Positions 2,746 to 42,247 of a stretch of 49,454 nucleotides of DNA are shown one piece after another. The number at the start of each line of letters is the position of its first letter. The stretch's first letter is position 1. Origin of the DNA: Thermodesulfovibrionales bacterium (GTDB lineage: Bacteria > Nitrospirota > Thermodesulfovibrionia > Thermodesulfovibrionales > JdFR-86). The position numbers and the translations under genes are program-made. The stretch covers positions 1-49,454 of the forward strand of contig JAUXOF010000084.1 of NCBI GenBank assembly GCA_030682405.1, in the 5' to 3' direction. Below the pieces are notes generated by a model. That model was not told the DNA's origin, did not search any database, and saw nothing but the letters and a program-made list of their open reading frames with translations.

Positions 2746-3433
2746 ATGCTAAAGTGTCGTCTACTGGCGAAATCATGTAGCTGGACAACACTTCAAACTC
2801 TTTGTCTTTCCGGCCGTAAAGGAGCATTTTCTGATAAGCCCTTATCTTTTCCACCTCTTTTATTTCTTTTGCCATGATGTCTTTGTCGAGCAAGGGGATT
2901 ACGTTGTGATACGCCCCGATGAACAAAACCCCGGTTTCCCCCTCTTTCAGGGTTCTATTTATCCTGTCAGCTATAAACCCGTCCCTTTTTACGAGAAGGC
3001 TGTTTTTCCTCATCTTGTATAATATATAGGCGGACATTTTCTGTCTTACCGTAACAGCGTTTTTTAACTTGACGAGGGAGTCCCTCTCTTTGATGACAGC
3101 GGCGAGGTCCTCGGTCTTTTCCAGAATCGCGCCCTGCTCCATGAGCGCCGACAGAACCTCGTAGTTCTTACTGCCGGACTTCACGCCCTCGGAGACTATC
3201 TTCCGTCCGATGTCCCCGCCAACGACCATTCCGTCCTGGTATACCCTGAGGTTGGCGGCCTTAATGCCGTTGAAGTATTTGATTATGGCATCCCAGAAGC
3301 CGGACACCGTCTCCTTATGTCTTGCCCATGTCTCCTCTCCCAACTCTGCAATAGTCCTCTTTGCAACGCTGTCGGCGATAGAGCCGAGGTCTGCCTCCAT
3401 ATGGATGACCGGGACATAGAGCAGGGTTCTCAT
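2735..3433 (-). CDS. Uncharacterised protein, last gene of the gas vesicle operon
   Basis: A 232-residue soluble protein with no signal peptide or membrane segment. I chose the ATG at 3433 because it overlaps the gvpJ stop by 4 bases (ATGA) and opens a clean beta-strand (MRTLLYVPVIHMEADLGS); a longer frame upstream only reads through gvpJ in another frame. The C-terminal half has GVLFIGAYHNVIPLL, which recalls the strand-loop with His of TraB/ChaN-like folds, but I cannot assign a family. The middle is helical and charged. Its place at the end of a tightly overlapping gvp operon suggests a role in gas vesicle formation or its regulation. Confidence 0.75.
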   Translation of the reverse strand: MRTLLYVPVIHMEADLGSIADSVAKRTIAELGEETWARHKETVSGFWDAIIKYFNGIKAANLRVYQDGMVVGGDIGRKIVSEGVKSGSKNYEVLSALMEQGAILEKTEDLAAVIKERDSLVKLKNAVTVRQKMSAYILYKMRKNSLLVKRDGFIADRINRTLKEGETGVLFIGAYHNVIPLLDKDIMAKEIKEVEKIRAYQKMLLYGRKDKEFEVLSSYMISPVDDTLASLS

Positions 3434-3726
3434 TTTCTCTTCGGAGCTTTCTCCATGCGCTCCAGCCTCTTGTTGAGACCCCTGTTTTCTTCCTCTACGG
3501 CGGCCACCTTCGAGGAAAGATAAGGGTCGATCTGCCACCAGTTTATCCCCATCTCAAGGGCCTTGTCCACAGAGGCTATCAGTAGCCGTATCTTAATGTT
3601 CAGGAGTTCGACGCCGACGAGGTCTATCCTGATGTCTCCGGCGATGACGATTCCTTTATCTAAAACCCGCTCTAATATGTCCGCCAAGTTTGTGGCCTGT
3701 GTCGCATGCATCATCTGTTGAGCCAT
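3430..3726 (-). CDS. gvpJ: Gas vesicle protein GvpJ (GvpA-family minor shell protein)
   Basis: A 98-residue GvpA-superfamily protein. The core (residues 12-66) has the family pattern LADILERVLDKGIVIAGDIR, then a hydrophobic strand-helix ending in IASVDKALEMGINWW. The SVDKAxEMGxxWW end is typical of GvpJ/GvpM rather than GvpA. A charged C-terminal coiled-coil tail of about 30 residues follows. Such proteins are minor components thought to help nucleate the gas vesicle tip. The order F-G-L-S-K-J seen here matches Bacillus megaterium. A good AGGAGG lies just before the ATG. The gene overlaps both neighbours. Confidence 0.87.
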   Translation of the reverse strand: MAQQMMHATQATNLADILERVLDKGIVIAGDIRIDLVGVELLNIKIRLLIASVDKALEMGINWWQIDPYLSSKVAAVEEENRGLNKRLERMEKAPKRK

Positions 3727-4004
3727 AGTTCCTCCTGTGCGCCGGAGTCTGACAGACCCGTCTGCCTGACGACCGAGTTTGCCAACGTCCTGTAGACCTC
3801 GGCAACAGTGCGGCAGTCCCTGCAGGTCTCTGCCTCGGAATACTTACCGCATCCGAGAAGCGCCTCTGCTTCCCTTTTTAGCCCCTTTGCGCACTTTGTC
3901 TTTTCTGCCTGCTTTGCCTTTCCGATTTTTTCTGTGAGGCTTTTGAACTCAAGCCTCTGTTTCTGAAATGTGGTGCAGCTTATCTTTGAGCTTGCCGCTT
4001 TCAT
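3711..4004 (-). CDS. Small Cys-containing protein of unknown function in gvp operon
   Basis: A 97-residue, lysine-rich, helical protein. It has five cysteines, two of them in a CRDC pair at about residues 61-64, with others near 10, 38 and 52. The ATG overlaps the stop of the GvpS-GvpK gene by 4 bases, and the 3' end overlaps the gvpJ start by 16 bases, so it is translated as part of this operon. I do not recognise a family. It occupies the slot between gvpK and gvpJ, which is empty in the best-known clusters. Confidence 0.7.
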   Translation of the reverse strand: MKAASSKISCTTFQKQRLEFKSLTEKIGKAKQAEKTKCAKGLKREAEALLGCGKYSEAETCRDCRTVAEVYRTLANSVVRQTGLSDSGAQEELWLNR

Positions 4005-4558
4005 ATCAAATCCCCCAAGGGGCCAAGGTTCAGATTGAGGTCCTCGTCCTTGAGCCCGAATATCTCTTTGAGCTCTTGCATCTTGTCCTCCAGTTTCATA
4101 AATGCAGCCCCGAGCCTTTCGGCCTCTTCATCCGTAACCGACCCTCTGTCTATTCTCCTTAGGGCTTGCTTTTCCATGAGCTGCCTGATGAGCTCCACGA
4201 CGGTCAGCACCAGTTTTGCCAGCCCCTGCTCGACCTTTTCCGGGGCATCGGCGCCCTTCATGTCTTCGGTTCCAGTCAAAGACGCTCTGTTGGGTCGGTC
4301 TTCGTGCTGCTGTGTGCCGGTTTCCGGCAGGCACCTCTTTTCCGAGATGAGCCTGGCGCCCGAGACCGGACTGCCTGTTGCGCCACGCATCTTTTCGGCA
4401 GTATCCACAGAGGCAATCATTACCCTGAGGCCTACGAAGACCAGGTCCACATCTGCTACGGAAAGCATTAAGTCCCCGCTCAGGACCACACCTTTGTCTA
4501 TTACCCTGTCGAGGGTCTCCACGAGGCTGACATTCCTTGAGGGGGAGGCGCCGCTCAC
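4001..4558 (-). CDS. gvpS-gvpK: GvpS-GvpK fusion protein
   Basis: A 185-residue protein with two gas vesicle domains in one frame. Residues 8-57 are a GvpA-superfamily domain of GvpS type (VIDKGVVLSGDLMLSVADVD, then LRVMIASVDTAEKM). A polar linker covers about residues 60-105. Residues 106-185 are a GvpK domain (LAKLVLTVVELIRQLMEKQA, DEEAERLG, FGLKDEDLNLNLGPLG). Separate gvpS and gvpK genes are adjacent in this order in Bacillus megaterium, so a fusion is plausible and no stop or frameshift separates them. The start is GTG at 4558, overlapping the gvpL stop by 4 bases (GTGA). Both parts are minor assembly proteins. Confidence 0.85.
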   Translation of the reverse strand: MSGASPSRNVSLVETLDRVIDKGVVLSGDLMLSVADVDLVFVGLRVMIASVDTAEKMRGATGSPVSGARLISEKRCLPETGTQQHEDRPNRASLTGTEDMKGADAPEKVEQGLAKLVLTVVELIRQLMEKQALRRIDRGSVTDEEAERLGAAFMKLEDKMQELKEIFGLKDEDLNLNLGPLGDLI

Positions 4559-5340
4559 AGCGCCTCCTGTTTTATCGAACAGAAATTATACGGAGGCCAT
4601 GGCCCTGTGCAATTAAGGTCAAGCCATGGTAGTTTCTCTTCCAGCAGGTCCACATCGTCCATGAAGCCCCTGAGTCTGCCCTTGTCTATCAGAAAGGCGG
4701 AGTTGAGAATCATATCCTCCTTCCGCCCGGTCATCTCTTTCGGAATCAGCCCGTTGATGCAGGTCTCGGCGCTCCATCGGCTGAGTGTCTCAAGACATTC
4801 CCCTGCCCACCCGCTGATTTTTTCGGTTGCGATATCCTCTATCAACTGCTGTCTTTTCTTTCTTAAGAGATATGCTTTCCCTGCCGAAACGGAACCGATC
4901 TCCCTGTCTATTTTCAGAATCCGTTTGTCCCGGCAGGCAGTACCGGGTCTTTCTACGCCGAAGTAGACCTTGAGACTCCATTCTTCTTTGCCTTCCAGCC
5001 GGGCGAGGAGACCCTTGAATTCGTCAAGGCGGGCATCAAGCATCGCCTTTAGGCTTTTTTCCGTCCTGAAGAGGGTGGCGAATTTAAAGGGTATGACCGC
5101 TGCATGTTCCATTGTCTTTGCCACCACCTGCGCATGAGCCAGCACATTGGACTCGACCCATCTCATGTCGGCCAAATTCTCCTTAAGGTCTTTGGTAAAT
5201 GCGTCCGCTTTCACCCTGCTTGCCACTGCATGGAGGCCTTTGTTGGAGACGAAGCGGACATTGCCGTCAATGCCTGCGATGACCCTGTCCCCCGGGATTT
5301 TTCCGGTCAGGCAGTACAGATAAATCAACTTTGAAGGCAC
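4555..5340 (-). CDS. gvpL: Gas vesicle protein GvpL/GvpF family
   Basis: A 261-residue GvpF/GvpL protein, normal for the family. The N-terminal strand KLIYLYCLTGK, the HAQVVAKTMEHAAVIPFKF segment, the helical middle and the C-terminal end (LNCTGPWPPYNF near the terminus) are all typical; the GPWPPYNF ending is the family hallmark. I chose GTG 5340 because GGGAGA lies 6-9 bases upstream; the frame extends further but without family similarity. It follows gvpO by 13 bases and overlaps the next gene. GvpF/L proteins are accessory components that bind GvpA and help start shell assembly. Confidence 0.88.
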   Translation of the reverse strand: MPSKLIYLYCLTGKIPGDRVIAGIDGNVRFVSNKGLHAVASRVKADAFTKDLKENLADMRWVESNVLAHAQVVAKTMEHAAVIPFKFATLFRTEKSLKAMLDARLDEFKGLLARLEGKEEWSLKVYFGVERPGTACRDKRILKIDREIGSVSAGKAYLLRKKRQQLIEDIATEKISGWAGECLETLSRWSAETCINGLIPKEMTGRKEDMILNSAFLIDKGRLRGFMDDVDLLEEKLPWLDLNCTGPWPPYNFCSIKQEAL

Positions 5341-5353
5341 TCGGTTCTCCCTT

Positions 5354-5632
5354 TCACAATGAGTTCTCGCGTCTCTGCCACGGTTCATGCCTCTCAAAAG
5401 ACAGGATTTCCATGTCAGCATCCAGGTTGACCGTATATATCTTCCTGTCCTTCACTTTTGCGGGAATCCCAAGGGACTTTATGAACAAACTGTCCTCAAT
5501 GACCTCTACATCCGCATCCCAGCCATCGTTGGCCCTTGCCGTCCTGATAATCCTTATTCTGTCGTCCTCCACCTTAAGCGTCTTTTTTAAGAACTCATTG
5601 ACGACCCTGTCTACCTCTTCAACCTTTGTCAT
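5354..5632 (-). CDS. gvpO: Gas vesicle protein GvpO
   Basis: A 92-residue protein starting at the ATG at 5632 behind AGGAGGTG. It shows the GvpO pattern: NDGWDADVEVIE in the middle, then RKIYTVNLDADMEILSFER, that is a Trp-containing strand, a V-E-V-x-E strand, a Y-x-V-x-L-D strand and a final F-x-R. The N-terminal helix (about residues 1-35) is charged. GvpO is known as an accessory or regulatory gas vesicle protein in haloarchaea and actinobacteria. The gene lies between gvpG and gvpL, a position not used in the classic Bacillus cluster. Confidence 0.72.
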   Translation of the reverse strand: MTKVEEVDRVVNEFLKKTLKVEDDRIRIIRTARANDGWDADVEVIEDSLFIKSLGIPAKVKDRKIYTVNLDADMEILSFERHEPWQRRENSL

Positions 5633-5649
5633 CTCACACCTCCTGTTTT

Positions 5650-5874
5650 TCATTTGGGCTGGACGGCGTCCAGATGCTCCATGAGCTGCCTTTCCTGTCT
5701 TTCGTATTCCTCGGCGCTGATTTCATCCAGCTCGAACATCAAACGCAGCTGCATGAGTTTTTCACGGATGAGGTCGGCATCGGACAACTCCCTGTCGGCC
5801 ATCTCATTGACCTTTCTGAGCACACCCATCAGCCCCTTGAAGGGCAGAAGCAGGAGGTCGTCTATTAAAAACAT
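5650..5874 (-). CDS. gvpG: Gas vesicle protein GvpG
   Basis: A 74-residue GvpG protein. The start at 5874 gives MFLIDDLLLLPFKGLMGVL, the conserved N-terminal amphipathic helix of the family. It is followed by a charged helix with REKLMQLRLMFELDEISAEE and a short tail. Length matches family members of 75-90 residues. It starts 5 bases after the gvpF stop. GvpG is a minor accessory protein required for gas vesicle formation. Confidence 0.9.
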   Translation of the reverse strand: MFLIDDLLLLPFKGLMGVLRKVNEMADRELSDADLIREKLMQLRLMFELDEISAEEYERQERQLMEHLDAVQPK

Positions 5875-5879
5875 TTTCC

Positions 5880-6647
5880 TCAAACCTCCCATTCTTCAGG
5901 GTGGATGGTGATGCTGGAGAAATTATAAGGGGGGATATTGCCGACATACAGGAATTTGACCCTGTCCTCATGCATCTTTCCGAGGTCCTCCATTAAGTTG
6001 TCAAACTCCTTTTCCCTGCCCCTGTTCACCAGAAAAGCGGCGCTCAGAAACATTCTGTCACCGTAAGGCCTGTTAACCCTGTAATCAACCGCCGCCTTTT
6101 TCAGCACAGCCAACACCGCCTCCGCCTCTCTGTCCTTTTTGCTTTCCAGCTCCTGCTCGACCATCCTGCCGAGCGCTATCCTTGCCTCAGTGTTTTTTCT
6201 GCCTGAATCGTTTTGGAGCTTTTCTTTCAGACCCCGGATTTCCCCGCTTTCCTTAAGTATCTCCTCAAAAACGGCGTCCGTATTTTTCCATACGGCCTTC
6301 ACGCTCAGCTCTACCTTATAGTCCATATCTTTCAGCAGACCATTGAACTCCCTCTGTCTTGTGTCCAAGAGGTTCTGTATTTTCCCGGCGCTCGGCGCTA
6401 TGGTGCAGAACCTTACGGGCAGGACCGTAAACTCCTTCATTGCCTCTTCGACCACCCTTTCATGGGCAAGCACATTGTCTCTGCTTACTGCATACCTTGT
6501 TTCAGCGGTATCACTGACAACCATGCTTAAATCACCGCAGCCCACGGTACTGACCTCATCCCCTCTGCCTCCGATGCCGATAGGGCCGAAATTCCTTTCG
6601 AGTGCCGTCTTGGCTATGCAATAAATGTATTTCACCCCTTTTTGCAT
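5880..6647 (-). CDS. gvpF: Gas vesicle protein GvpF/GvpL family
   Basis: A 255-residue GvpF/L protein directly before gvpG, the usual position of gvpF. It begins MQKGVKYIYCIAK, has AHERVVEEAMKEFTVLPVRF (the counterpart of the conserved helix and strand), a charged helical centre, and ends with VGNIPPYNFSSITI, the family ending. ATG 6647 lies 2 bases after the stop of the upstream GvpF-J protein, so translation is coupled. This is the second of three GvpF/L proteins in the operon; each probably has a separate job in shell nucleation. Confidence 0.9.
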   Translation of the reverse strand: MQKGVKYIYCIAKTALERNFGPIGIGGRGDEVSTVGCGDLSMVVSDTAETRYAVSRDNVLAHERVVEEAMKEFTVLPVRFCTIAPSAGKIQNLLDTRQREFNGLLKDMDYKVELSVKAVWKNTDAVFEEILKESGEIRGLKEKLQNDSGRKNTEARIALGRMVEQELESKKDREAEAVLAVLKKAAVDYRVNRPYGDRMFLSAAFLVNRGREKEFDNLMEDLGKMHEDRVKFLYVGNIPPYNFSSITIHPEEWEV

Positions 6648-6649
6648 AG

Positions 6650-7681
6650 CTACCTGCCCATCCTGATAGTGATGAAATCCTGACCCGTTCCTGCAATGCC
6701 GACACTTTGATTGAGAAGGCAACACTCAATCAGCAACTTATATGCCCTGTTTATCTCAGTGAACCGACTCTCTGCATCGGGTCTCCCTTGATTTACATCA
6801 GGATGGTAAAGTGGGGCAAGGCTTCTGTATGCCTTTTTGACACTACCCTCGGTGAGAGCGTCGCTTTTCAGGCACAATATTTTTTTTGCCCGGGCAACAT
6901 CTTCGATACAGACCCTCCTGACATCGGCTGTGTAGAAACTGTATGCAGGCAGAGGCCCGACACACCTGAAATTTATTTTCCCGGCGTAAAGCTCGGCCAG
7001 GGCTTCCAGCCCTCTTTCGAATTCAGACCTTTTGCCCCTCTCTATGAGGAAAGCGTTACTGGTTATCATGCCTTCGTCAACCGGCACATGCCTTCTGAGG
7101 AAGCGTTCAGGTTCGGCTTCCGGCAGTGCCGCCTTAGTTAAGGCAGTCTCTATTTCAGAGGCAAGTCTCTCTCTCTCTTTGTCCCAGAGGTTCTTGATGA
7201 ACCTGCCTATTCTTATCCGTTCTTCAAGAGATGCCCCTTCCGGTCGGGACATCTCTTGCTCCCTTAGTTCTTTGACTTCCGGTCCATTGCCGATTTCCTT
7301 AATAGCCGAGTCCAGATCGCTGCATACAGCCGTCACTTCCATCTCCATCCTGTTGCCGAGCTCCCTGAATGTCCGCTTGAACGCACTGTATCCTCTGAAA
7401 AGAAGTTCTTCTACTTCCTGTGTATTAAGGGCATAAGTGCCCAGTTTTACGGGGATAACGGCGCAGGAATCCATAACCCCCTCCATTACCTGCTGATGCC
7501 TGAGCAGATGTCTTGCCGCAATATCCTTGGTCTGGGTGTTGTAGTCAACTATCTCCGAGTCGCTCACGACCGCGGAAATGTCCTGATAGGGAATCGTATA
7601 AAACTCTCTGCGGATTCCGTTGGAATTAAAGACCTTTTCCTCTGCGGACTCAATAATGCCATAGATATATTTGCCTTCCAT
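6650..7681 (-). CDS. GvpF/L protein fused to a C-terminal DnaJ J-domain
   Basis: A 343-residue protein. Residues 1-250 are a GvpF/L domain: MEGKYIYGIIES at the start, the RHQQVMEGVMDSCAVIPVKL segment, and VGPLPAYSFYTADV as the usual C-terminal strand. A J-domain follows at roughly residues 255-315, with helix II containing KKAYRSLAPLY, the diagnostic HPD loop at about 293-295, and helix III with FTEINRAYKLL. A 30-residue tail ends the protein. J-domains recruit and stimulate Hsp70; here one would be delivered to the gas vesicle assembly site. No frameshift or stop separates the parts. The start overlaps neither neighbour and lies 1 base after the Cdc48-like stop. Confidence 0.9.
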   Translation of the reverse strand: MEGKYIYGIIESAEEKVFNSNGIRREFYTIPYQDISAVVSDSEIVDYNTQTKDIAARHLLRHQQVMEGVMDSCAVIPVKLGTYALNTQEVEELLFRGYSAFKRTFRELGNRMEMEVTAVCSDLDSAIKEIGNGPEVKELREQEMSRPEGASLEERIRIGRFIKNLWDKERERLASEIETALTKAALPEAEPERFLRRHVPVDEGMITSNAFLIERGKRSEFERGLEALAELYAGKINFRCVGPLPAYSFYTADVRRVCIEDVARAKKILCLKSDALTEGSVKKAYRSLAPLYHPDVNQGRPDAESRFTEINRAYKLLIECCLLNQSVGIAGTGQDFITIRMGR

Positions 7682-7682
7682 C

Positions 7683-9815
7683 TTAATACCTCGCTGCCTG
7701 CTCGCGGAGCAGCTTAACTGCATCCTCAAGATGTCTCTTTGAGATTACAAGCGCGCCTGCCCCTTGAGTTATATGTTCCCGTATCGCAAGCATGGATGCC
7801 TTTCGGCAGATAAACCCGATATCAGAGCCGACCATGTTTTCTGTTTGCTCTGCCAGATTGCGTAAATCTATATCTTTGTCCATGGGCTTGCCTTTGGTGT
7901 GGATTTCAAATATCTTGAGCCTGGTCTCCGTATCAGGGACGGGCAGTTCAAGCAGTAGGTCGAACCTGCCGCTTCTAAGCAGCGCCGGCTCTATCAGGTC
8001 TATCCTGTTGGTTGCGGCCAAGACCATTACACCCTTCAGTTCTTCTATGCCGTCCATCTCTGTCAGGAACTGGCTTATGACCCTTTCGGTCACATGGGCA
8101 TCTGTAATGCCCGATTCCCTTCTGGGCACAAGGCTGTCTATCTCGTCGAAAAACAATATCGCCGGTGATGCCTGTTTTGCTTTCCTGAATATCTCCCTGA
8201 TGGCCCTTTCGCTTTCGCCGATGTACTTTGAAATCAGGCTCGGGCCTTTGACCGCAATGAAGTTGACCCCGCTTTCGTTAGCCACTGCCTTGGCTATCAG
8301 GGTCTTTCCCGTGCCGGGGACACCGTAAAGCATTATCCCCTTAGGGGGAGTTGTCCCTACTGTTTTGAACATCTCCGGGTATTTTAAAGGCCACTCAACC
8401 GCCTCTTTCAGTTCCCGTCTTATATCCTCAAGCCCTCCCACATCCGTCCATCTCACATCCGGAACCTCTACGAAGACCTCTCTTATGGCGGAGGGCTCGA
8501 CCTCTTTCATCGCCTCGATGAAGTTGTCCATGGTCACCTGAAGCCCCATGAGCGTCTCGTAGGGTATGTCGGCCATCTCGAAATCTATCTCAGGTATGAT
8601 TTTCCTTAAGGCTGACATCGCCGCCTCTCTGACAAGCGCTGCGAGGTCGGCGCCGACAAAGCCGTGAGTGATCTCGGCCAGTTTGCCTGTGTCAACATCC
8701 TCGGCAAAGGGCATGCTCCGGGTATGGATGTTGAGTATCTCCAGCCGGCCGTTCCTGTCCGGGATGGGAATGGATATCTCCCTGTCGAACCTGCCCGGCC
8801 GCCTCAGGGCAGGGTCTATGACATTAGGGATGTTGGTTGCGGCTATTACTATGACCTCGCCACGGGATTGCAGTCCGTCCATGAGCGCCAAGAGCTGGGC
8901 CACGACCCTGCGCTCGACCTGCTTCTCACTGCCCATCTCCTCCCTCTTCGGAGCGATGGCATCTATCTCGTCAATGAAGATTATGGCCGGGGCGTGTTTT
9001 TCAGCGTCCTCGAACACCGCCCTCAGCCGGGCTTCGCTTTCTCCGTAAAACTTGCCCATTATCTCAGGACCGCTTATGTTGGTGAAGTATGCCTCGGTCT
9101 CGTTGGCAACGGCACGGGCAATAAGGGTCTTGCCTGTGCCCGGCGGGCCGTAGAGAAAGACCCCCTTGGGAGGCTCAACCCCAAGTCTTTCAAAGACCTG
9201 TGGGTACTTAAGGGGCAGTTCTATCATCTCCCTGATTCTCCGGATCTGGCCGCCAAGCCCGCCGATGTCTTCATAAGAGACCCTAACCGTCTTGAACTTG
9301 TCAGTCCCCTTTTCCTCTATTTTTATCAGAGTGCCTGCACTTACGGTGACTACGCCGGAGGGAATTACTCCCGTCACCTTGAAGTCATATGCCCTTGCCC
9401 CGAAAAAACTGACCCTCAACCTGTCGCCCTCGGTCACCGGAAGCCCCTCAATAAGAGAGCCTATGTACCTGACATCCTTTGCCCTCTGCACCGGGTGAAG
9501 ATGGGTTAGAGGAGAGAGCGTAATCTTGTGCGCAGGACTGGCAAGCACTTTCCGTATCTTGACTTTCTCGCCCAGCCCTATCTGGGCGTTTTCCCTTGTT
9601 ATGCCGTCTATCTGAACAATCCCCTTTGCCCTTTCTTCGGGATAGCAGGGCATTACTCTGGCCGACGTCTTTGCCTTGCCGGTTACCTCCACGATATCCC
9701 CTGCCTCGGCCTCGATGCCTTTCATATCCTCAGGGTCTATTCTGGCGATAGCCCTGCCTACATCCTTGGTCAGGGCCTCTTTCGTCTTTAAGGTCAGAGC
9801 GTTTTCTTTCTTCAT
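7683..9815 (-). CDS. Cdc48/VCP-like AAA+ ATPase (two AAA domains)
   Basis: A 710-residue protein of the archaeal VAT / eukaryotic Cdc48 type. The N-terminal double-psi barrel domain (about residues 1-185) begins with [24 protein letters not shown]1 follows with Walker [18 protein letters not shown] and Walker [20 protein letters not shown]2 has Walker [19 protein letters not shown] and Walker [19 protein letters not shown] arginines are present ([17 protein letters not shown]). Such enzymes form hexamers that unfold or extract proteins. Within this operon it probably remodels or dismantles Gvp assemblies; that role is inference. It is somewhat shorter than typical Cdc48 (730-800), with a short C-terminus. 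Confidence 0.93.
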
Positions 9816-9839
9816 CTTAGCCTTCTCTTTCTTCCGGGC

Positions 9840-10781
9840 TCAACCGGCAATGAGCACATCTCCGATGTTTCTCAGCGCATCCGGCCCTTTTATCTCGGAG
9901 GGCTGAAGCAGGACAACCGTTGTGCTTAAATCGCTGAATTGTTCCTGAATCTCCCTGATATATTTGTCCTGCCCCTGTCTCCTTGACCGACAGAACCCGC
10001 ACCCACCCTCAGGGACGACATTGTTGATAATAAGTTGGTTCACATTCACCCTGGAGTGTCTCAGACTGTCTACCAGCCTTCGGGTCTCTTTGACCGCCAT
10101 GTCCTCAGGTATGGTCACGACAATGAACTCGCACCTGTTCCGGTCACTCAGAAGGGCATCGATTTTCCTGACGGTCTTTTTCATGGACACAAGGAAATCG
10201 TCGGCGCTGTCGGGGCTGTACCTGCCGGCGAAACTTGAAACCATATACCTGTATTTCCATCTCATCTTTGCCATGACCTTTATCCAGTCATCCAAAAGCT
10301 CCGGCAGGCCCAGTAGCCTGAGGGCGTGGCCTGTGGGAGCCGTATCCACTATATACTTGTCAAATCCGCCCTCGTCTATCAGGTCCACAATCTTCTTGAA
10401 CCCCATCACCTCGTCTATGCCGGGTATGGGCAGGCCGAGCAAGGATTCTATGTCCTCCGCGTCCAGATAAGTGCTCGTCTCAAAGAGTCTTTTGAGTTCA
10501 TCGTAGTACTGCATTTTGAAATCCTCAAGCGCCTCCTCAGCGCTTATCTCTATAGCGCTTAAATTATCCATACCCTCCAACCGTGTTACCTCATGACCTA
10601 TATCTCTTTGTAAGCTGTCCGACAGGGAATGGGCAGGGTCTGTGGATATAAGCAGTGTGTTTAGGCCGTGCCCTGATAGATAGAGTCCGGCGGCCGAGGC
10701 GCAGGTGGTCTTTCCCACACCCCCTTTTCCGCCGAATAAAATCAGCTTCAGCGACGGTTTTAGTAGCCCGCTTAACGCCAT
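9840..10781 (-). CDS. ArsA/Get3-family ATPase
   Basis: A 313-residue P-loop ATPase of the deviant Walker A class. It has FGGKGGVGKTTCASA (P-loop with the signature lysine), switch I with STDPAHSLSD, and switch II/ArsA signature DTAPTGHALRLLGLPE. A CxxC (CGFC) lies near residue 260, as in Get3-type proteins that bind a shared zinc at the dimer interface. It is the length of a single-domain Get3 rather than the duplicated ArsA, and there are no ars genes nearby. Get3 proteins shield hydrophobic helices in transit; GvpA and relatives are strongly hydrophobic, so a chaperone role is plausible. The Hsp20 stop is immediately before its ATG. Confidence 0.9.
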   Translation of the reverse strand: MALSGLLKPSLKLILFGGKGGVGKTTCASAAGLYLSGHGLNTLLISTDPAHSLSDSLQRDIGHEVTRLEGMDNLSAIEISAEEALEDFKMQYYDELKRLFETSTYLDAEDIESLLGLPIPGIDEVMGFKKIVDLIDEGGFDKYIVDTAPTGHALRLLGLPELLDDWIKVMAKMRWKYRYMVSSFAGRYSPDSADDFLVSMKKTVRKIDALLSDRNRCEFIVVTIPEDMAVKETRRLVDSLRHSRVNVNQLIINNVVPEGGCGFCRSRRQGQDKYIREIQEQFSDLSTTVVLLQPSEIKGPDALRNIGDVLIAG

Positions 10782-11312
10782 TCACTTTTTAACCCTGACC
10801 TTGAGGATTCCATTTTTATAAGAATGAGTAAGCGTTTCTATTTTGACGCTTGCCGGTAGATGGATTTCTTTACGGTACTTTCTGTGTTTGTTCACCGCAG
10901 ATATCTCCAGCACATCCCCTTTTAAATCCACTGATATGCCTTCTTCATTGACCCCTGGGATTTCGGATATGACCACAACCTCGTCCTTTTCATCGAAGAC
11001 ATCCGTCAGTGGCTCTCTCTCCTCGCCGAGGACAGGGCCTTCAGGCGTCTCTCTGATATTGCCGAATGTCTCAACAACAGGCTTTCCTCCCACCGCGGTC
11101 CTGATGGAAAACCCGTAGACGCCCTTCATTCCCTCTTTAATGCGGCTCAGGTCTATTCCGCCCTCTTTCTTAAGCTCCCCGCCGGCCTCCTCTATATGAG
11201 ATGCAAGGTCAACGAGCTTTTCTATCCCTTTGAGCAATCCGCCGAAGCCCAACTTGACCACGCCGAGGTCAATGTCCATGTCTTCTTCTTTCTTTTTCTT
11301 TACTCCAGCCAT
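10782..11312 (-). CDS. Hsp20-family protein (GvpH-like)
   Basis: A 176-residue protein with a 90-residue N-terminal region (hydrophobic patch LGFGGLLKGIEKLVDLA, then charged) and a C-terminal alpha-crystallin domain (about residues 100-176): DVFDEKDEVVVISEIPGVNE, DVLEISAV, and the closing GILKVRVKK. Haloarchaeal gas vesicle clusters carry the Hsp20-like GvpH, and this gene fills the same role by content and position. It probably keeps aggregation-prone Gvp proteins soluble. GAGGTGGGG precedes the ATG at a suitable distance. Confidence 0.87.
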   Translation of the reverse strand: MAGVKKKKEEDMDIDLGVVKLGFGGLLKGIEKLVDLASHIEEAGGELKKEGGIDLSRIKEGMKGVYGFSIRTAVGGKPVVETFGNIRETPEGPVLGEEREPLTDVFDEKDEVVVISEIPGVNEEGISVDLKGDVLEISAVNKHRKYRKEIHLPASVKIETLTHSYKNGILKVRVKK

Positions 11313-11328
11313 ATCCCCACCTCACTGT

Positions 11329-11628
11329 TCAGTAGCATAACTTCATCTTGTTCCATTTTTTTCCTTGAGGTTTTTCGTTTTTCATTCCGCGCCTCATCGG
11401 TCTTCCTGCCGCATGGCGGCCCGCTGCCCCCAGTTCTTTGTTTATCTCGTCCAACCTTTTTTGAATTGCCGCCGCTCGCTTTTGGAGGGAGTCGCCTTCG
11501 TTTTGCAGGCGCTCTTTTTCCTTTTCAAGCATATACATGTTTATATGAGCGGCCCCTGCCGTCTTGGGCATGGAACTCCTGCCTTTCCGGAGACTGCTGA
11601 TATCAGCAGTATTTATTGACAAGCTCAT
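11329..11628 (-). CDS. Short coiled-coil protein in gvp operon
   Basis: A 99-residue basic protein. ATG 11628 lies inside the gvpN 3' end, just behind AGGAGGTG, so the two genes overlap by 26 bases in different frames. A coiled-coil segment covers about residues 33-70 (LEKEKERLQNEGDSL, IQKRLDEINKEL), followed by a Lys/Arg-rich tail. No family is recognised. An inner ATG (MPKTAG) is an alternative start about 19 residues downstream. It could be a structural or linker protein of the vesicle cluster. Confidence 0.7.
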   Translation of the reverse strand: MSLSINTADISSLRKGRSSMPKTAGAAHINMYMLEKEKERLQNEGDSLQKRAAAIQKRLDEINKELGAAGRHAAGRPMRRGMKNEKPQGKKWNKMKLCY

Positions 11629-12514
11629 CCACCACCTCCTTAACCTTGTTCTGGTTCGTCTTTGAGCCGACCCTGCTCGTCTCGGAAGCAAGGATGTCCC
11701 GGCATATCTGGGCAAACGCCCCGTTGGCGCTGGCTGGTGTAAGGTTCAACATCTTGAGGGTCTTTGCAATCATTATTGAGCCCCTGACTGTTGGGGCGAA
11801 CTCGCATTTTCCCGACTCCCTCAGTCCCCTCACGATGTTGACTACCTTTTCGGAGTCCTCTCCTGAGAGGTCGGATTTCGCCTGTGTTATGACGACCTCC
11901 GTATCTTTGTCAAAGTGGTCAAGGTCCATGGTCACCATCCTGTCCCTGAGCGCGTCCTGGCTTCGGTGCACGCCTGCGTACTCCTCGGGGTTGCTCGTAA
12001 AGATGGCGGTGAAGTTCGGATCCACCTTCAGATAGGGTTCCCCCTGCCTGCCGGACGGCAAATCCAGCATCTTTTCACTGAGGATGGAAAGCAGAACATT
12101 GTTGGCCTCCGGCCTTGAACGGGTGAACTCGTCATATATCAGGGTGAAGCCGTGCCTGCATGCTACGGTCAGGCGGTTGTCCACCCACCGCTTGGTCATA
12201 TCCTCTTCAAGTTTGAGCACTCTGGAAACATAACGGTCAACCACTTTTTTAAACCTGTAGCCGTGCTCGCCGCCGACCAGATTGGAGGTGGTAAACTCCT
12301 CATCGCCGTGAACCAGCACCACCGGACGGCCTATCTTGCCTGCCACATGCATAGCCATGGTCGTCTTGCCTGTGCCGGACACACCTCTGAAGTGAACCGG
12401 GAAACCCGCCTTTATATAGGTGAGGGCCCTGTTCGCAATGTCTTCTATATAGGGGGTCTCAACGAAATCATGCATAGCGGTCGGCTCAAGCACGGTGGTT
12501 ATTTCATCTATCAT
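11603..12514 (-). CDS. gvpN: Gas vesicle AAA+ ATPase GvpN
   Basis: A 303-residue MoxR-like AAA+ ATPase. It shows ETPYIEDIANRALTYIKAG, Walker A FRGVSGTGKTTMAMHVAG near residue 45, VLVHGDEEFTTSNLVGG, Walker B TLIYDEFTRSRPEANNVLLS and sensor 1 FTAIFTSNPEEYAG, all in the form typical of GvpN. ATG 12514 follows AGGAGGAGA; a longer frame begins in the preceding zinc-ribbon gene and is less likely. GvpN is required for efficient growth of gas vesicles and is thought to use ATP to add or insert GvpA subunits. Confidence 0.94.
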   Translation of the reverse strand: MIDEITTVLEPTAMHDFVETPYIEDIANRALTYIKAGFPVHFRGVSGTGKTTMAMHVAGKIGRPVVLVHGDEEFTTSNLVGGEHGYRFKKVVDRYVSRVLKLEEDMTKRWVDNRLTVACRHGFTLIYDEFTRSRPEANNVLLSILSEKMLDLPSGRQGEPYLKVDPNFTAIFTSNPEEYAGVHRSQDALRDRMVTMDLDHFDKDTEVVITQAKSDLSGEDSEKVVNIVRGLRESGKCEFAPTVRGSIMIAKTLKMLNLTPASANGAFAQICRDILASETSRVGSKTNQNKVKEVVDELVNKYC

Positions 12515-12525
12515 TCTTTCTCCTC

Positions 12526-12702
12526 CTATCTGAGACTTATCTTTGTTCCGCAATTCGGACAGTACTTATACTCGTAGGTGAAGCGCCAGATTCGGCCGCA
12601 TACAGGGCATACCACAGTGAGGGAATGTCCGCAGTTGGGGCAGTGCTTGAGGTCTCCCCATGTTGTGGCTCCGCAGTCCGGACACTTGAATGTACCGCTC
12701 AT
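12526..12702 (-). CDS. Small double zinc-ribbon protein
   Basis: A 58-residue protein with four CxxC pairs: FKCPDCG near the N-terminus, HCPNCG at about 20-25, VCPVCG at about 30-35 and YCPNCGTK near the end. This is enough for two zinc ribbons of the DZANK type. The start ATG at 12702 is preceded by GAGGGGTGA, and the stop TAG is at 12526-12528, 11 bases before the gvpN start. There is no other sequence feature. It may act as an adaptor or assembly scaffold; it has no named counterpart in standard gvp clusters that I know of. Confidence 0.8.
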   Translation of the reverse strand: MSGTFKCPDCGATTWGDLKHCPNCGHSLTVVCPVCGRIWRFTYEYKYCPNCGTKISLR

Positions 12703-12729
12703 GCCTTCACCCCTCTTTTACCGGCAGGA

Positions 12730-13035
12730 TTATGCCCTGCCACTGACTGCTTTTCTCTTTTCCTGCATTTTGTGGGTCATTTGTTGCCAGGTATTTGCCA
12801 TCTCCCTGAGCTCGGCTCTAAAGCCATGGAGCAGGTCCCCGACCTCTTTTTCCCTTTCCCTCTGTCTTTCCGCTATACCCTTCATGAACTCTTTGAATTC
12901 CTTCAACCTATCGGATTCGGCGCTCGCAAGGCTGTTGGCCGTCTCCTTTTTTAAGTCTGTAACAAATTTTACCCTGTCATTGAACGACGACAGGATGTCT
13001 TCACCCAAACTTTTTATATCAGATGCCATTGTCAT
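12730..13035 (-). CDS. GvpC-like coiled-coil protein, short paralog
   Basis: A 101-residue, fully helical protein. Its N-terminus (SDIKSLGEDILSSFNDRVKF) aligns with that of the next upstream gene. Its second half (EFKEFMKGIAERQREREKEV, then a leucine and ELREM) matches one copy of the 51-residue repeat found there. It therefore looks like a one-repeat paralog of the 211-residue protein. GvpC of cyanobacteria is a helical repeat protein that stiffens the outer shell. The link to GvpC rests on architecture and position after gvpA, not on clear sequence identity. An AAAGGAGG precedes the ATG. Confidence 0.72.
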   Translation of the reverse strand: MTMASDIKSLGEDILSSFNDRVKFVTDLKKETANSLASAESDRLKEFKEFMKGIAERQREREKEVGDLLHGFRAELREMANTWQQMTHKMQEKRKAVSGRA

Positions 13036-13049
13036 TTCATTTCCTCCTT

Positions 13050-13685
13050 TTAATTGGTAAGCTGATTTATCTTCTCCTCAACTGCAATCCCAATCCGTGC
13101 TAATGCCGTTTCACCTCCTTTTTTAGCTTCTATTTTCCCTGCCTGTTCTTTCCGCCTTGTGCGGACGGAGTTCAACAGCCCCTTGAAGTCCTCTATGCGC
13201 GACCCCTGCCTTTTTGCCAGCAGGCTCCGTAAGGAACCCGTCATCTCTTCATGTTCCTTTTGAAAATCCCTCAGCACTCCGGTTATTTCCTCTTCCCTTT
13301 TCCTCTGTCCTGCGTGAATGTCCCTGAGCATTTCTTTAAACTCACCCGCCTTTATCGCCTTTTTTTCTTCCAGTGCCCTCTTGAGTGCCGATGCTCTGTC
13401 CTTCTGTTCCTCCATATAGGTTCTTAACATCTCCTTCACCTGTCTTTGTCTTTCTTCATGTCCGGCAATGATGTCTTTCATCATGATGTCAAAATCCTTT
13501 TTCCTTAAAGATTCTCCGGCGGCGAGGGATTTCTTGAGCCTGCCGCTCATCTCGTTTTTGCTGGTACTGAACTCTTCAAGCATCCGATGGGTATTGTCTA
13601 TGATTTCACCTATCGCCGCGATTCTGTGCTCATATGAAGAAACAATTTCATGTGCGAACTTTTTCATATCATCGGCGATTCCCAT
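13050..13685 (-). CDS. GvpC-like coiled-coil repeat protein
   Basis: A 211-residue helical, highly charged protein. Two consecutive 51-residue units at about residues 50-100 and 101-151 align without gaps; a third partial unit follows from 152. Each unit has the core pattern F-x2-M-(L/M)-x-D-I-x-A-G, then R/E/Q-rich residues and x-L-R. The N-terminal 40 residues are shared with the 101-residue neighbour. Position directly behind gvpA and the repeat architecture make it a candidate outer-shell stiffening protein. The repeat length differs from the 33-residue repeat of cyanobacterial GvpC. AGGAGG is visible before the start. Confidence 0.74.
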   Translation of the reverse strand: MGIADDMKKFAHEIVSSYEHRIAAIGEIIDNTHRMLEEFSTSKNEMSGRLKKSLAAGESLRKKDFDIMMKDIIAGHEERQRQVKEMLRTYMEEQKDRASALKRALEEKKAIKAGEFKEMLRDIHAGQRKREEEITGVLRDFQKEHEEMTGSLRSLLAKRQGSRIEDFKGLLNSVRTRRKEQAGKIEAKKGGETALARIGIAVEEKINQLTN

Positions 13686-13770
13686 AACCTGCTTCCCTCC
13701 TTTAGATAAGGAACACTCCTGGCAGACCGCGCTCTTTCAAGGACGCTTTGGCAGGAGTTTTCCGTGTCCG

Positions 13771-13983
13771 TTAAGCGGCTGATGCTGTTGCCGTGAGGCC
13801 GATTGCCTCAGCATACTTCAGGTATGTCTCAACAGATGCTACAACCACCCTTGCCTCGATAGCCAGAAGCTCGATGCCTACCAGCGAGATTCTCACCCAC
13901 GCATCGATAACCACGCCCTTGTCCAGTATCCGGTCAACGACTTCAGCCAGACTGGATGATGCTATTGCCTTTTCTACTGCCAT
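13771..13983 (-). CDS. gvpA: Major gas vesicle shell protein GvpA
   Basis: A 70-residue GvpA, the expected length. The sequence follows the family closely: [56 protein letters not shown]. GvpA polymerises into ribs that form the gas-filled shell. ATG 13983 is placed behind AGGAGGTGAG; three in-frame codons upstream (from 13992) are within the leader. It is the first gene of the operon and lies 30 nt after the predicted start point of the sigma-54 promoter. There is only one gvpA copy in the window. Confidence 0.97.
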
Positions 13984-14024
13984 TTCCCTCACCTCCTTTC
14001 GTTTTGGATTCTACTGAACATAGA

Positions 14025-14039
14025 GCAATAATTATGCCG
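14025..14039 (-). promoter_or_regulatory. Sigma-54 (-24/-12) promoter of the gas vesicle operon
   Basis: On the minus strand the sequence is CGGCATAATTATTGC. It has the invariant GG (14038-14037) and GC (14026-14025) exactly 10 bases apart, with GGCA and TTGC boxes matching the TGGCAC-N5-TTGC consensus. Expected transcription start is near 14013, giving a leader of about 30 nt to gvpA. The neighbouring upstream gene is a sigma-54 activator. Confidence 0.78.
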
Positions 14040-14147
14040 CCTCTGTCTTTGATAAAGCACTGGATTAACATCCATACACTAATAGGACAATATCAAACAG
14101 AAATTCAGCAGTTGTGAGTTTTATACAAGATGCAGGCAAAGAGCGGA

Positions 14148-14173
14148 AGTCTGTAGAGGGACCTCTACAGACT
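14148..14173. promoter_or_regulatory. Perfect 26-bp palindrome, probable enhancer (UAS) for the sigma-54 activator
   Basis: Two 12-bp arms (AGTCTGTAGAGG and its exact complement) are separated by GA. The site is 109 bp upstream of the -24 element and about 135-160 bp upstream of the expected start of gvpA transcription, where NtrC-type activators usually bind. It also lies 12 bp after the activator gene's stop codon. It could instead be a terminator hairpin, but no T-run follows on either strand. Confidence 0.62.
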
Positions 14174-14185
14174 GTAAGTGTGGTT

Positions 14186-15541
14186 CTATAACTTGAAAGC
14201 CTTCATCTTTGAATACAGCGTCATGCGGTCTATCCGGAGGAGTCTGGCGGCCCGGGTCTTGTTATTGCCTGCATTCTCCAGCGCCATTTTGAGTGCTGAT
14301 TTTTCCACTTCTTCTGCGGCCTTTCTGGCCATATCCCTGAGGGACAGACCCTCATAAAGCCCTTCCATGGGGTTGAACCTTTCGGTCCCGGAGAAATAAG
14401 GGTTAAGATGCACTTCATTGATAAGGTTTGAATTCGCCATGAGCACTGCCTTCCTGACTGTGTTTTTCAGTTCTCTTGCATTGCCGGGCCAATGGTAGCT
14501 CAGGAGGCACTGCAAGGCCGTCCCGGATATGCCTTCTGCCTTTCTGTCCAGTTCAAAATTTGCCTCTTTGATAAAATGTTTGACCAACAGGGGCATGTCG
14601 TCTTTCCGCTCCCTGAGCGGCGGTAAGGTAATGTCAAACTCGTTAAGCCGGTGATAGAGGTCTTCTCTGAAACTGCCCTTTTTGACTTCGTCGGAGAGGA
14701 TTTTGTTTGTGGCGGCAAGCACCCGAACATCTATTGTTATCTCTTTTGTGCTGCCTATACGCTGTAATTTTCGCTCCTGAAGCACACGGAGGAGTTTTGC
14801 CTGAAGGGGCAGGGAGAGGTTGCTTATCTCGTCCAAAAAGATGGTCCCGCTGTTGGCTGCTTCAAACTTCCCCTCCTTTTTGCCGTTGGCCCCTGTAAAG
14901 GCGCCTTTTTCGTAGCCGAAGAGCTCGCTTTCAACCAGATTCTCAGGCAGTGTTCCGCAGTCCACGGTAACGAACGGCTTGTCGCGTCTGGGGCTTTTCT
15001 GGTGTATCAGCCGGGCAACCAGCCCTTTGCCGGTGCCGCTTTCGCCTTGGATGACCACGGTCATATTTGTAGGCGCCACTATTGCGACCTGTTTCATGAC
15101 CTGTTTTATCGCGGGGCTTTCGCCCTTGAAGGGCTGGAGGTCTGTTTTTTCGTCAACCCTCCTTTTTAAATCCCCTACCTCGCTGGCAAGGAGCGCTTTT
15201 TTTATAGTGAGCACCAGCTCCTCGTTATTGAAAGGCTTGGTGATATAGTCGAATGCCCCTAATTTCATGGCCTGCACCGCTTCCTTAGCCCCTCCGTATG
15301 CCGTGAGCATGATAACACCTACGTCCCTGTCTATTTCCTTTATTTCACTCAGGACTTCCATTCCGTCCATCCCCGGCAGCCTGAAGTCCAGCAGAACTAT
15401 GTCGGGCGAATAAGTCCTGAGTTTTTTAAGGGCCTTCCTGCCGTCGTCTATGGCCGCAGCCTCGTAACCTTCCGCCTGAAGAATGGTTGAAAGGCTCCAC
15501 TGTGTGTCCCTGTCGTCGTCCACTATCAGGATTTTCCTCAT
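14186..15541 (-). CDS. NtrC-family sigma-54-dependent response regulator
   Basis: A 451-residue activator in three parts. Receiver (1-120): DDD acid pocket, phospho-acceptor Asp in IVLLDFRLPGMDG, Thr in MLTAYGG, Lys in ITKPF. AAA+ domain (about 143-375): GESGTGKG Walker A, GAFTGA sigma-54 contact loop intact, GTIFLDEI Walker B, R-finger region FREDLYHRLN. C-terminal Fis-type helix-turn-helix (last 45 residues): NNKTRAARLLRIDRMTLYSK. It should open sigma-54 promoters when phosphorylated. Its start overlaps the kinase stop by 4 bases. It sits immediately upstream of the gas vesicle operon with a matching promoter and palindrome between them, so that operon is its likely target. Confidence 0.95.
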   Translation of the reverse strand: MRKILIVDDDRDTQWSLSTILQAEGYEAAAIDDGRKALKKLRTYSPDIVLLDFRLPGMDGMEVLSEIKEIDRDVGVIMLTAYGGAKEAVQAMKLGAFDYITKPFNNEELVLTIKKALLASEVGDLKRRVDEKTDLQPFKGESPAIKQVMKQVAIVAPTNMTVVIQGESGTGKGLVARLIHQKSPRRDKPFVTVDCGTLPENLVESELFGYEKGAFTGANGKKEGKFEAANSGTIFLDEISNLSLPLQAKLLRVLQERKLQRIGSTKEITIDVRVLAATNKILSDEVKKGSFREDLYHRLNEFDITLPPLRERKDDMPLLVKHFIKEANFELDRKAEGISGTALQCLLSYHWPGNARELKNTVRKAVLMANSNLINEVHLNPYFSGTERFNPMEGLYEGLSLRDMARKAAEEVEKSALKMALENAGNNKTRAARLLRIDRMTLYSKMKAFKL

Positions 15542-16329
15542 CGCCCGGTTCTTTTTCCTATATGTATTGGAAGGCTGACCGTCACCTCGGTGCCATAGCC
15601 GGGCTTGCTCTCCACCTGTAGAGTTCCGCTGTGAAGCTCGATGATGTGCTTGGCAAGTGTTAGTCCCAGCCCTGTGCCGTCTTTTTTTGTGGTAAAGAAA
15701 GGGGTGAATATCTTTTTCAGATTGTCATTGGGGATTCCACAGCCCGAATCCACGAAACTTACCACAACCTCTGCGCTTTTAGGGTCGTGATATGCAGTGA
15801 TTGACAGCCTTCCGCGCCGGGGCATGGCGTCTATTGCATTCAGGATAAAATTCAGGAATGCCTCTTCAAGCAAGTCTTCATCTAACAGGACCATGGGCAG
15901 TTTTCTGTGCAGTCTCTTGCTGAGGCGCACCCCCTGCTTCAAGAATATTGGTTTAACCAGATTATACGCCCTATGGACAACGCGGTTTACAGTGCCCGGT
16001 GCAAGGGCTGTCTCATGCGGCCTTGCGAGGTTGAGCAGGACATTAACGGTTCTGTTTGCTTTTTTAGAGTTTTTCACTATGACCTTGAGGCTTTTCCTCA
16101 ACGGTTCGTCAATCTCGTATCTGTCAAGGCAGAACTGCGCCACTGCCTTGATGTTGCTGAGGGAGTTTTTAATGTTATGGGCAGTGCCCGCCGTCAGATG
16201 CCTGATTCCAGCCAACCGCCCTGGGTTCATCAGCCTATTTTGCAATTTCATCAGAGAGGTCGTGCCTTTAATGCATTCTATTGTCTGGATGCTGTCTGCC
16301 ATGGCATCAGGTGTTTTGTGTTTTCCCAT
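15538..16329 (-). CDS. Soluble sensor histidine kinase (NtrB-like)
   Basis: A 263-residue kinase with no membrane segment and no recognisable PAS or GAF domain; only about 45 residues precede the dimerisation helix. H-box: LTAGTAHNIKNSLSNIKA with the phospho-accepting His. N-box: FLNFILNAIDAMP. G1: VDSGCGIP. F-box: FTPFFTTKKDGTGLGLTLAKHI. It should phosphorylate the response regulator encoded next, with which it overlaps by 4 bases. The signal must be cytoplasmic or brought by a partner protein. ATG 16329 is used; another Met lies at residue 10. Confidence 0.92.
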   Translation of the reverse strand: MGKHKTPDAMADSIQTIECIKGTTSLMKLQNRLMNPGRLAGIRHLTAGTAHNIKNSLSNIKAVAQFCLDRYEIDEPLRKSLKVIVKNSKKANRTVNVLLNLARPHETALAPGTVNRVVHRAYNLVKPIFLKQGVRLSKRLHRKLPMVLLDEDLLEEAFLNFILNAIDAMPRRGRLSITAYHDPKSAEVVVSFVDSGCGIPNDNLKKIFTPFFTTKKDGTGLGLTLAKHIIELHSGTLQVESKPGYGTEVTVSLPIHIGKRTGR

Positions 16330-16490
16330 ATGTCACCCTCATTTTTTTAGATGCTATCAGAGACTTTGACTGATTGCAACCATTTTTTGTGGTTCCAATA
16401 AATACAACCTGCGACAGTATCGGTTGGAACTTTTTTAAGATGGGAACCGACCCAAATCCGGCGATAGAGATTTACGTTCTTCACTCTATG

Positions 16491-16656: not shown

Positions 16657-16990
16657 TTACCCGAAGGCCATACACCCTCGTCGCATCCGATGATACAGAC
16701 CCAACTTCTCCAGTGTGGTTGCAAGCTTAAGCCAAAGCTGCCCGCTTGTCCTTACCACCTTGCCTGCTATCCCTATCAGCGACCACCTCAGCGTATGTAT
16801 CGTCTTTGTTCTCATTTCATCAGGAAGCAGATGCTCCTTCTGAAGCACGAATGTGTTGTATGTCAAAACACCGAGGGCAAACCATACAGCGTTGGCCCCG
16901 AAGTCCCCAATGGGAAGGCTCTCCATATTAAAGCCGCCCTTAAGCTCCTTTATGATGTTCTCCGCCTGACCCCAAGAACCCGGCTGTATT
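16657..16990 (-). pseudogene. IS1380-type transposase, C-terminal fragment
   Basis: About 110 residues of a transposase C-terminus are readable on the minus strand from about 16990 to the TAA at 16657. AENIIKELKGGF is followed by GANAVWFALGVLTYNTF, then TIHTLRWSLIGIAGKVVRTS and a basic end. The AEN-x2-KELK-x-GF and GAN-x2-W blocks are typical of the end of IS1380-type transposases. The N-terminal three quarters, including two catalytic acidic residues, are missing; the break point abuts the FG-GAP fragment. Confidence 0.72.
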
Positions 16991-38525: not shown

Positions 38526-38533
38526 AAGGGGTG

Positions 38534-39691: not shown

Positions 39692-40097
39692 AAAGAGGCT
39701 GTCCCTGAGCTTCCCTCCGGACTTCAGGAACATAGACGAGGCAAGGACAAAGCTCGAAGGGTTCTGTCGAGATATCTATAATGAGCCGTTTTCCGAATCT
39801 AAGATGAGCGAGTTTTTAATCGCCGCCACTGAAATGATGAACAACGCGGCGGAGCATTCAAACGCAGGGACCATCGGCATAGAGCTCAGAGCCGGGGAAA
39901 AGGAAGTAATCTTCCGCGTAACTACCGAGGGCGAAAGGTTCGATCCTACGGAGAAAGACATATCCATGCCGAACCTCGATGGGGAACTTCCCGAAGGAGG
40001 CTTCGGCCTCGCCCTAATAAAGGAGCTTACGGACGGCATGTGGTATGAATATTCAGACGGGAAAAACATACTTACGATAAAAAAAATAATCAACTGA
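39681..40097 (+). CDS. RsbW-like serine kinase / anti-sigma factor
   Basis: A 138-residue GHKL ATPase. N-box AATEMMNNAAEHSNAG, and a G2-type GGFGLALIKELTDGMWYE near the C-terminus. There is no dimerisation His, so it is a protein serine kinase of the RsbW/SpoIIAB kind rather than a sensor kinase. It should phosphorylate the STAS protein encoded next. No sigma factor gene lies nearby, so its output target may be CheA, the ATPase or a diguanylate cyclase; this is inference. Confidence 0.9.
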   Translation: MVAEKRLSLSFPPDFRNIDEARTKLEGFCRDIYNEPFSESKMSEFLIAATEMMNNAAEHSNAGTIGIELRAGEKEVIFRVTTEGERFDPTEKDISMPNLDGELPEGGFGLALIKELTDGMWYEYSDGKNILTIKKIIN

Positions 40098-40110
40098 AAC
40101 TGGAGGAGAT

Positions 40111-42215: not shown

Positions 42216-42247
42216 TAACTCAATATGGCATTCAGGGGAGTTAAAGA

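Follow-up and report, generated by a model that had tools for sequence, protein, structure and literature searches.

How is the gas vesicle operon of a bacterium of the order Thermodesulfovibrionales switched on, and to what signal does it answer? The window, by which we mean the whole stretch of 49,454 nucleotides analyzed here, carries a gvp cluster with genes for an NtrC-family activator and a histidine kinase upstream of gvpA (Table 1). An earlier note on this DNA proposed a complete sigma-54 two-component circuit that would tie buoyancy to an internal signal. To our knowledge, genetic work on how bacteria control their gas vesicles has been confined to very few organisms. We examined the promoter, the regulators, and the putative operator of this locus and compared them with those of its relatives.

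Table 1. Positions of the gas vesicle genes, their regulators, and predicted control sites in the window
Feature	Positions	Strand	Remarks
gvp cluster beyond gvpA: coiled-coil proteins, gvpN, Hsp20, ArsA-like, CDC48, three gvpF/L, gvpG, gvpO, gvpJ/K	3430-13685	-	
gvpA, at the head of the gas vesicle operon	13771-13983	-	
Predicted sigma-54 -24/-12 promoter, CGGCATAATTATTGCT (GG-N10-GC)	14024-14039	-	Predicted start ~14013
Perfect 26-bp palindrome	14148-14173		Predicted promoter-proximal dimer site (14152-14169) with 4 bp of flank per side
Operator (predicted UAS), 39 bp, TATAGAA-CCAC-ACTTACA-GTC-TGTAGAG-GTCC-CTCTACA	14152-14190	-	From alignment of relatives
NtrC-family activator: receiver, AAA+ with GAFTGA, Fis-type HTH, recognition helix IDRMTLYSKMK	14186-15541	-	
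Soluble histidine kinase, short, with H-box HNIKNS and no PAS sensor	15538-16329	-	Overlaps activator start by 4 nt
Possible sigma-70 promoter for the kinase and activator genes, TTGCAA-N17-TAGCAT	16351-16379	-	Weak, 8/12 consensus letters; spacing equal in G002

A predicted sigma-54 promoter upstream of gvpA

The element upstream of gvpA is a near-perfect match to the sigma-54 promoter consensus. Its GG-N10-GC core occupies 14038-14025, with the exact spacing that the earlier note described. The distance of 30 nt to gvpA given there is right for the predicted transcription start, which is 30 nt above the ATG, but not for the element itself, the 3' end of which is 40 nt above the ATG. CGGCATAATTATTGCT fits GGCAYRNNNNTTGCW with zero mismatches, and it agrees with the TGGCAYRNNNNTTGCW context at 15 of 16 positions (the first T is a C), again with exact spacing. 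The GGCAYRNNNNTTGCW pattern has 13 matches in the 2.03-Mb genome, versus 2 for a reversed control, and the genome encodes RpoN (PF04552, E 4.8e-58, on contig C31). A second sigma-54 match in the window, at 6746-6732, was set aside. It falls inside conserved DnaJ codons (NRAYKLL), also in the sister genus, and probably reflects coding constraint.

We aligned the promoter region of the window genome (G000) with those of its sister genus (G002) and of two further genomes (G015 and G056). GGCATAATTNTTGCT is invariant in all four, whereas the flanks are not. G002 has kept the activator, the kinase, the promoter, and the gvp cluster. In G015, the element precedes a stand-alone receiver gene, which is followed by gvpA, and in G056 it stands before gvpA on a contig from which the activator is absent. 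In G416, it lies between an activator fragment and gvpA. Similar -24/-12 elements were found 3' of the activator in G311, G084, G092, two Omnitrophota loci, and Syntrophaceae, and a weaker one in one Coprothermobacterota locus. The gvp loci of G031, G268, G216, and G091, which belong to the same phylum, had no clear sigma-54 site near gvpA.

We also took a broader approach by searching 71 gvpA loci from GTDB that have enough upstream sequence with a relaxed sigma-54 motif. Of the 53 non-cyanobacterial loci, 18 had the motif upstream of gvpA, and none of the 18 cyanobacterial loci did (Fisher P 0.0035, uncorrected for relatedness). Cyanobacteria are not known to have sigma-54. When the spacing of the motif was altered by -3, -2, -1, +1, or +2, no locus in the same survey matched. 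There was an excess at +3, but the matches inspected were mostly in activator HTH codons of Bacteroidota, and it was discounted.

The gas vesicle cluster and its surroundings

We assumed that the remainder of the gvp cluster is driven from the sigma-54 promoter. One protein (4001-4558, minus strand) has both a Gas_vesicle (GvpA/J-type) and a GvpK domain, apparently as a fusion, and G002 has a similar long open reading frame (L036, 1875-2498). A GvpF/L protein (6650-7729, minus strand) has a C-terminal DnaJ domain, and it too has a similar open reading frame in G002 (L036, 4514-5584). Two ATPases, one a CDC48-type AAA+ protein and the other ArsA/GET3-like, and an Hsp20 of archaeal type are encoded at 7683-9815, 9840-10781, and 10782-11312, respectively (minus strand), and these three proteins may be chaperones that serve gas vesicle assembly. 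The block of gvp and regulator genes is flanked by an IS5-family transposase gene (231-1250, minus strand) and an IS1380 transposase fragment (16657-16926, minus strand), and the block may once have been mobile.

An NtrC-type activator that accompanies gvpA

The activator adjoining the palindrome has the domains PF00072, PF00158, and PF02954, and its GAFTGA loop is intact, in agreement with the earlier note. Its best NCBIfam matches were AtoC, PEP_resp_reg, and NtrC, all below the cut-offs. The recognition helix IDRMTLYSK is shared by G000, G002, G015, and G056 and, as read from the DNA, by G416 and G305. Among the 176 genomes of the order, 10 have gvpA and 6 have close orthologues of the activator. 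Four of those 6 bear gvpA (hypergeometric P 7.7e-5). In a tree of 53 activators, the window protein grouped with those of G002, G056, G015, Omnitrophota, and Theseobacter (100/99), and the gvp activators of Bacteroidota and Ignavibacteria formed another clade. The GTDB sequences in this tree were picked for their proximity to gvpA, and the tree alone is no proof of exclusivity.

The kinase and activator genes are probably transcribed from their own weak promoter (Table 1). Further receiver domains, weakly similar to that of the activator, are encoded in an unrelated part of the window (38169-43375, plus strand). In L038 (4755-5231), L075 (10477-10121), L080 (6710-7114), and L070 (258-632), gvpA is separated from the sigma-54 promoter by a stand-alone receiver gene, as if the first product of these operons were a phosphate sink or a second regulator.

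A kinase that has lost its sensor

The soluble kinase beside the activator was correctly recognized in the earlier note, and it consists of HisKA and HATPase_c domains only, with no sensor domain. However, the description of the circuit as complete is not supported, because this kinase is without the two PAS domains seen in orthologues and its H-box is changed. The orthologues of G015 and of an Omnitrophota locus (L080, Omn080) have two PAS domains and the H-box HEIRNP. The kinase of G254, which is cut by a contig end, has one PAS-like region with a Cys motif and also HEIRNP. Both PAS domains are missing from the kinases of G000 and G002, and no PAS remnants were found upstream of the short kinase. 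The H-box is HDIKNP in G002 versus HNIKNS in the window. The latter departs from the H(D/E)I(K/R)NP of the Nitrospirota and Omnitrophota orthologues. Asn replaces the acidic residue after the phospho-His. The loss of the PAS domains and the HNIKNS change make the signalling competence of the kinase doubtful.

These changes are what would be expected if the adjacent kinase were a decaying or phosphatase-only remnant and not the input. Activator binding and sigma-54 control would still hold, but gvp expression would follow the level of the activator or another kinase. We take this reading seriously, although we lean slightly against it. The reading frame and the ATP-binding motifs are intact, and the kinase has been retained in two genera. 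Between G000 and G002, its dN/dS is 0.39 and that of the activator is 0.40, which suggests that the two are under similar constraint. Also, a Syntrophaceae homologue has Gln at the position of the Asn (HQIRNP), and therefore the change need not be fatal.

The earlier note suggested nitrogen, redox, or energy state as the signal, but nothing in the window identifies one. The PAS domains of the orthologous kinases carry a C-x(11-13)-C-x2-C-P motif, which by its sequence could suit redox or metal sensing. In G254 (contig C75, L193), the activator and the PAS kinase are kept, and genes for a PIN-like protein and a small protein then follow.

A predicted paired operator at the end of the activator gene

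The palindrome reported in the earlier note is perfect and begins 110 nt and ends 135 nt above the GG of the promoter, as had been stated. It is the sole inverted repeat in the window with arms of at least 11 and a loop of at most 8, and there were none in five mononucleotide shuffles. A genome-wide search for the same palindrome found no second copy, even at 3 mismatches.

Alignment of relatives places the palindrome within a larger predicted operator. This consists of two tandem 18-bp inverted repeats with centers 21 bp apart, in the arrangement 7-N4-7-N3-7-N4-7, with the half-site TGTARAG. Its first half-site overlaps the activator stop codon (14188-14186), and in most of the six operator-bearing genomes the stop codon is within that half-site. 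Since the operator takes in the end of the activator gene, the two have remained linked in most relatives.

The operator was found in six related genomes, at 86 to 122 nt from the GG of the promoter. The versions in G015 (TGTAAGC-CCAT-CTCTACA-GAA-TGTAGAG-CTCT-CTCGACA) and G056 (TGTAAGG-CTGT-CTTTACA-GAG-TGTAAAT-TCTC-CTCGACA) follow the 7-N4-7-N3-7-N4-7 arrangement, and in the G056 assembly the operator is above gvpA with no activator gene adjoining. The closest relative, G002, has a decayed promoter-proximal site (TGTAGAT...TTCATCA), which means that strong binding is not conserved there. Two more operators were found after the motif was fixed. That of G416 (TGTAAGA-CCAT-TTCTACA-AAC-TGTAGAG-CTCT-CTCATCA) is between the C-terminal end of the activator and the sigma-54 element before gvpA, and that of G305 (TGTAAGG-CTAT-CTCTACA-GAG-TGTAAAA-TCTC-ATTCACA) is directly 3' of its activator. 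None of 256,530 background positions scored as high as these two sites. Over the 24 half-sites of the six operators, the consensus letters T, G, T, A, R, A, and G occur 24, 22, 22, 19, 24, 18, and 13 times, respectively.

A matrix made from G015 and G056 alone ranked the window site first of ~98,900 positions and the G002 site first in its locus. In the 176 genomes of the order, the central 27-bp motif had exact matches only at its three source loci, and allowing up to one mismatch added one other place. The operator pattern with one extra base, used as a chance control, gave background matches only and missed its own site. G305 has the activator and the operator, but gvpA was not found in that assembly (89% complete; the contig ends). 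gvpA was also not found in G254, which has an orthologous activator and only the half-site at its stop codon left.

In loci with other recognition helices, the TGTARAG operator was absent (G311, G084, G092, Omn080, Theseobacter, and Bacteroidota), and Omn081 had a marginal matrix score (p 0.02). A Syntrophaceae locus (L086), the activator of which has a different recognition helix, has the 7-4-7-3-7-4-7 geometry in other letters (TATGGAA-AGCG-TTCCATA-GAT-TATGGAA-ATCC-GGCCACA). None of 300 shuffles was as good, and the spacing was the best of 81, but the geometry was noticed partly from this locus itself, which makes the result supportive and not fully blind. There were no IHF consensus sites between the operator and the promoter in the window.

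The palindrome begins 12 nt past the activator stop codon and could form an 11-bp RNA hairpin (-17.9 kcal/mol, z -2.9), which raises the question of whether it is a terminator or attenuator of the kinase-activator pair, unrelated to activator binding. We consider this very unlikely. An intrinsic terminator was rejected because there is no U tract and the hairpin is not conserved: it is strong in the window alone, and in G002 and G056 it is lost or altered. The palindrome was also not listed by a terminator scan. Conservation sits in the half-site letters and not in the stem, the motif of G056 has no activator gene beside it, and G254 retains only the one half-site.

Inverted-repeat operators also occur in other families, and a different, unlinked regulator, such as a repressor, might bind the palindrome while the NtrC-type activator works elsewhere. 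This seems just as improbable to us. The motif, the IDRMTLYSK helix, and gvpA travel together, and the position and the two-dimer spacing suit an NtrC-family activator. Furthermore, in Syntrophaceae a different helix goes with a different motif while the geometry is unchanged.

Proposed mechanism

The promoter, the operator, the activator domains, and their linkage are features of the sequence and its conservation. From these we infer, with considerable confidence, that the sigma-54 promoter of gvpA is opened by the neighboring activator bound at the 39-bp operator. Sigma-54 RNA polymerase would transcribe gvpA from 14039-14024, and the activator would bind 14152-14190 as two dimers at sites two DNA turns apart. 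The bound activator, presumably after forming a hexamer, would then contact the polymerase by looping over ~110 bp and open it. The input may be the level of the activator, a different kinase, or whatever kinase or phosphatase activity the neighboring kinase retains. Conservation in six genomes lends good support to the central proposal of the earlier note, that an adjacent NtrC-type activator controls sigma-54 transcription of gvpA from an upstream site.

We give hardly any weight to the idea that the -24/-12 match is incidental and that a sigma-70 promoter, or transcription continuing out of the activator genes, mainly accounts for gvpA expression: the activator gene and gvpA are on the same strand with no good terminator between them, but no sigma-70-like site was found in 13300-15000, and the -24/-12 element is conserved and is absent from cyanobacterial gvpA loci.

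A wider reading of sigma-54 activation by the neighboring regulator is more speculative. A module dedicated to gas vesicles (PAS kinase bearing a C-x(11-13)-CxxCP motif, IDRMTLYSK-type activator, and paired-dimer operator in the end of the activator gene) might have stayed with gvpA throughout Nitrospirota, Omnitrophota, and Theseobacter, and other sigma-54 activators might have been recruited independently in Bacteroidota, Ignavibacteria, and possibly Chlorobi. The sensor would have been shed in the window lineage, uncoupling buoyancy from its original signal. We offer this tentatively and incline toward doubting it as a whole. If it is true, gas vesicle genes outside cyanobacteria are commonly under the control of sigma-54.

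We found no paper on sigma-54 control of gas vesicles in Nitrospirota in a search that covered few subscription journals. The analysis provides a precise predicted promoter and operator, with coordinates, half-site, and spacing, and it suggests that sigma-54 activation of gvpA occurs across several phyla and is absent from cyanobacteria. The activator and operator are a predicted matched pair for driving gvp clusters, and the window kinase is a natural case of sensor loss.

Comparison with known systems

The gvp loci of Bacteroidota, Chlorobiaceae, and Ignavibacteria resemble the window in having a sigma-54 element before gvpA, and most of those in Bacteroidota also have a kinase and an NtrC-type activator upstream. 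However, their activators are in a separate clade, have a different HTH, and go with no recognizable TGTARAG operator. Strong sigma-54 elements were seen 78 to 123 bp above gvpA in Chlorobiaceae (L098, L122, L125, and L133), Bacteroidota (L110, L135, and L150), Ignavibacteria (L094 and L097), and Lentisphaerae (L091 and L128). The listed Bacteroidota and Ignavibacteria loci have an upstream kinase and an NtrC-type activator of the other clade.

The window activator shares the receiver-AAA+(GAFTGA)-Fis HTH architecture of NtrC/AtoC/ZraR-type regulators, and its predicted paired dimer sites are ~110 bp above a -24/-12 promoter. The TGTARAG half-site, the 21-bp dimer spacing, and the gas vesicle operon as target are its own.

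Control of gas vesicles by sigma-54 and an NtrC-type activator is already known from Serratia sp. ATCC 39006. There, 5' RACE placed the transcription start of gvpA1 at a sigma-54-type promoter, and the NtrC-like GvrA is required for gvpA1 to be expressed (PMC4982088). Insertion into rpoN is reported to leave the cells with no gas vesicles and to reduce transcription of gvpA1-gvpY (PMC11778176, citing Hill 2021). The two systems are alike in having a -24/-12 element before the first gvpA and an NtrC-family activator in the gvp locus (PMC4982088), and in both the structural operon is separate from the regulator genes. However, the Serratia gvrA heads a second operon with gvpH, gvpZ, gvpF2, gvpF3, gvrB, and gvrC, and the quorum-sensing repressor SmaR acts on gvpA1. 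The window differs in gene order, in its cognate kinase, and in its defined, though predicted, operator: here, the kinase and activator genes immediately precede gvpA, and the activator stop codon falls within the operator.
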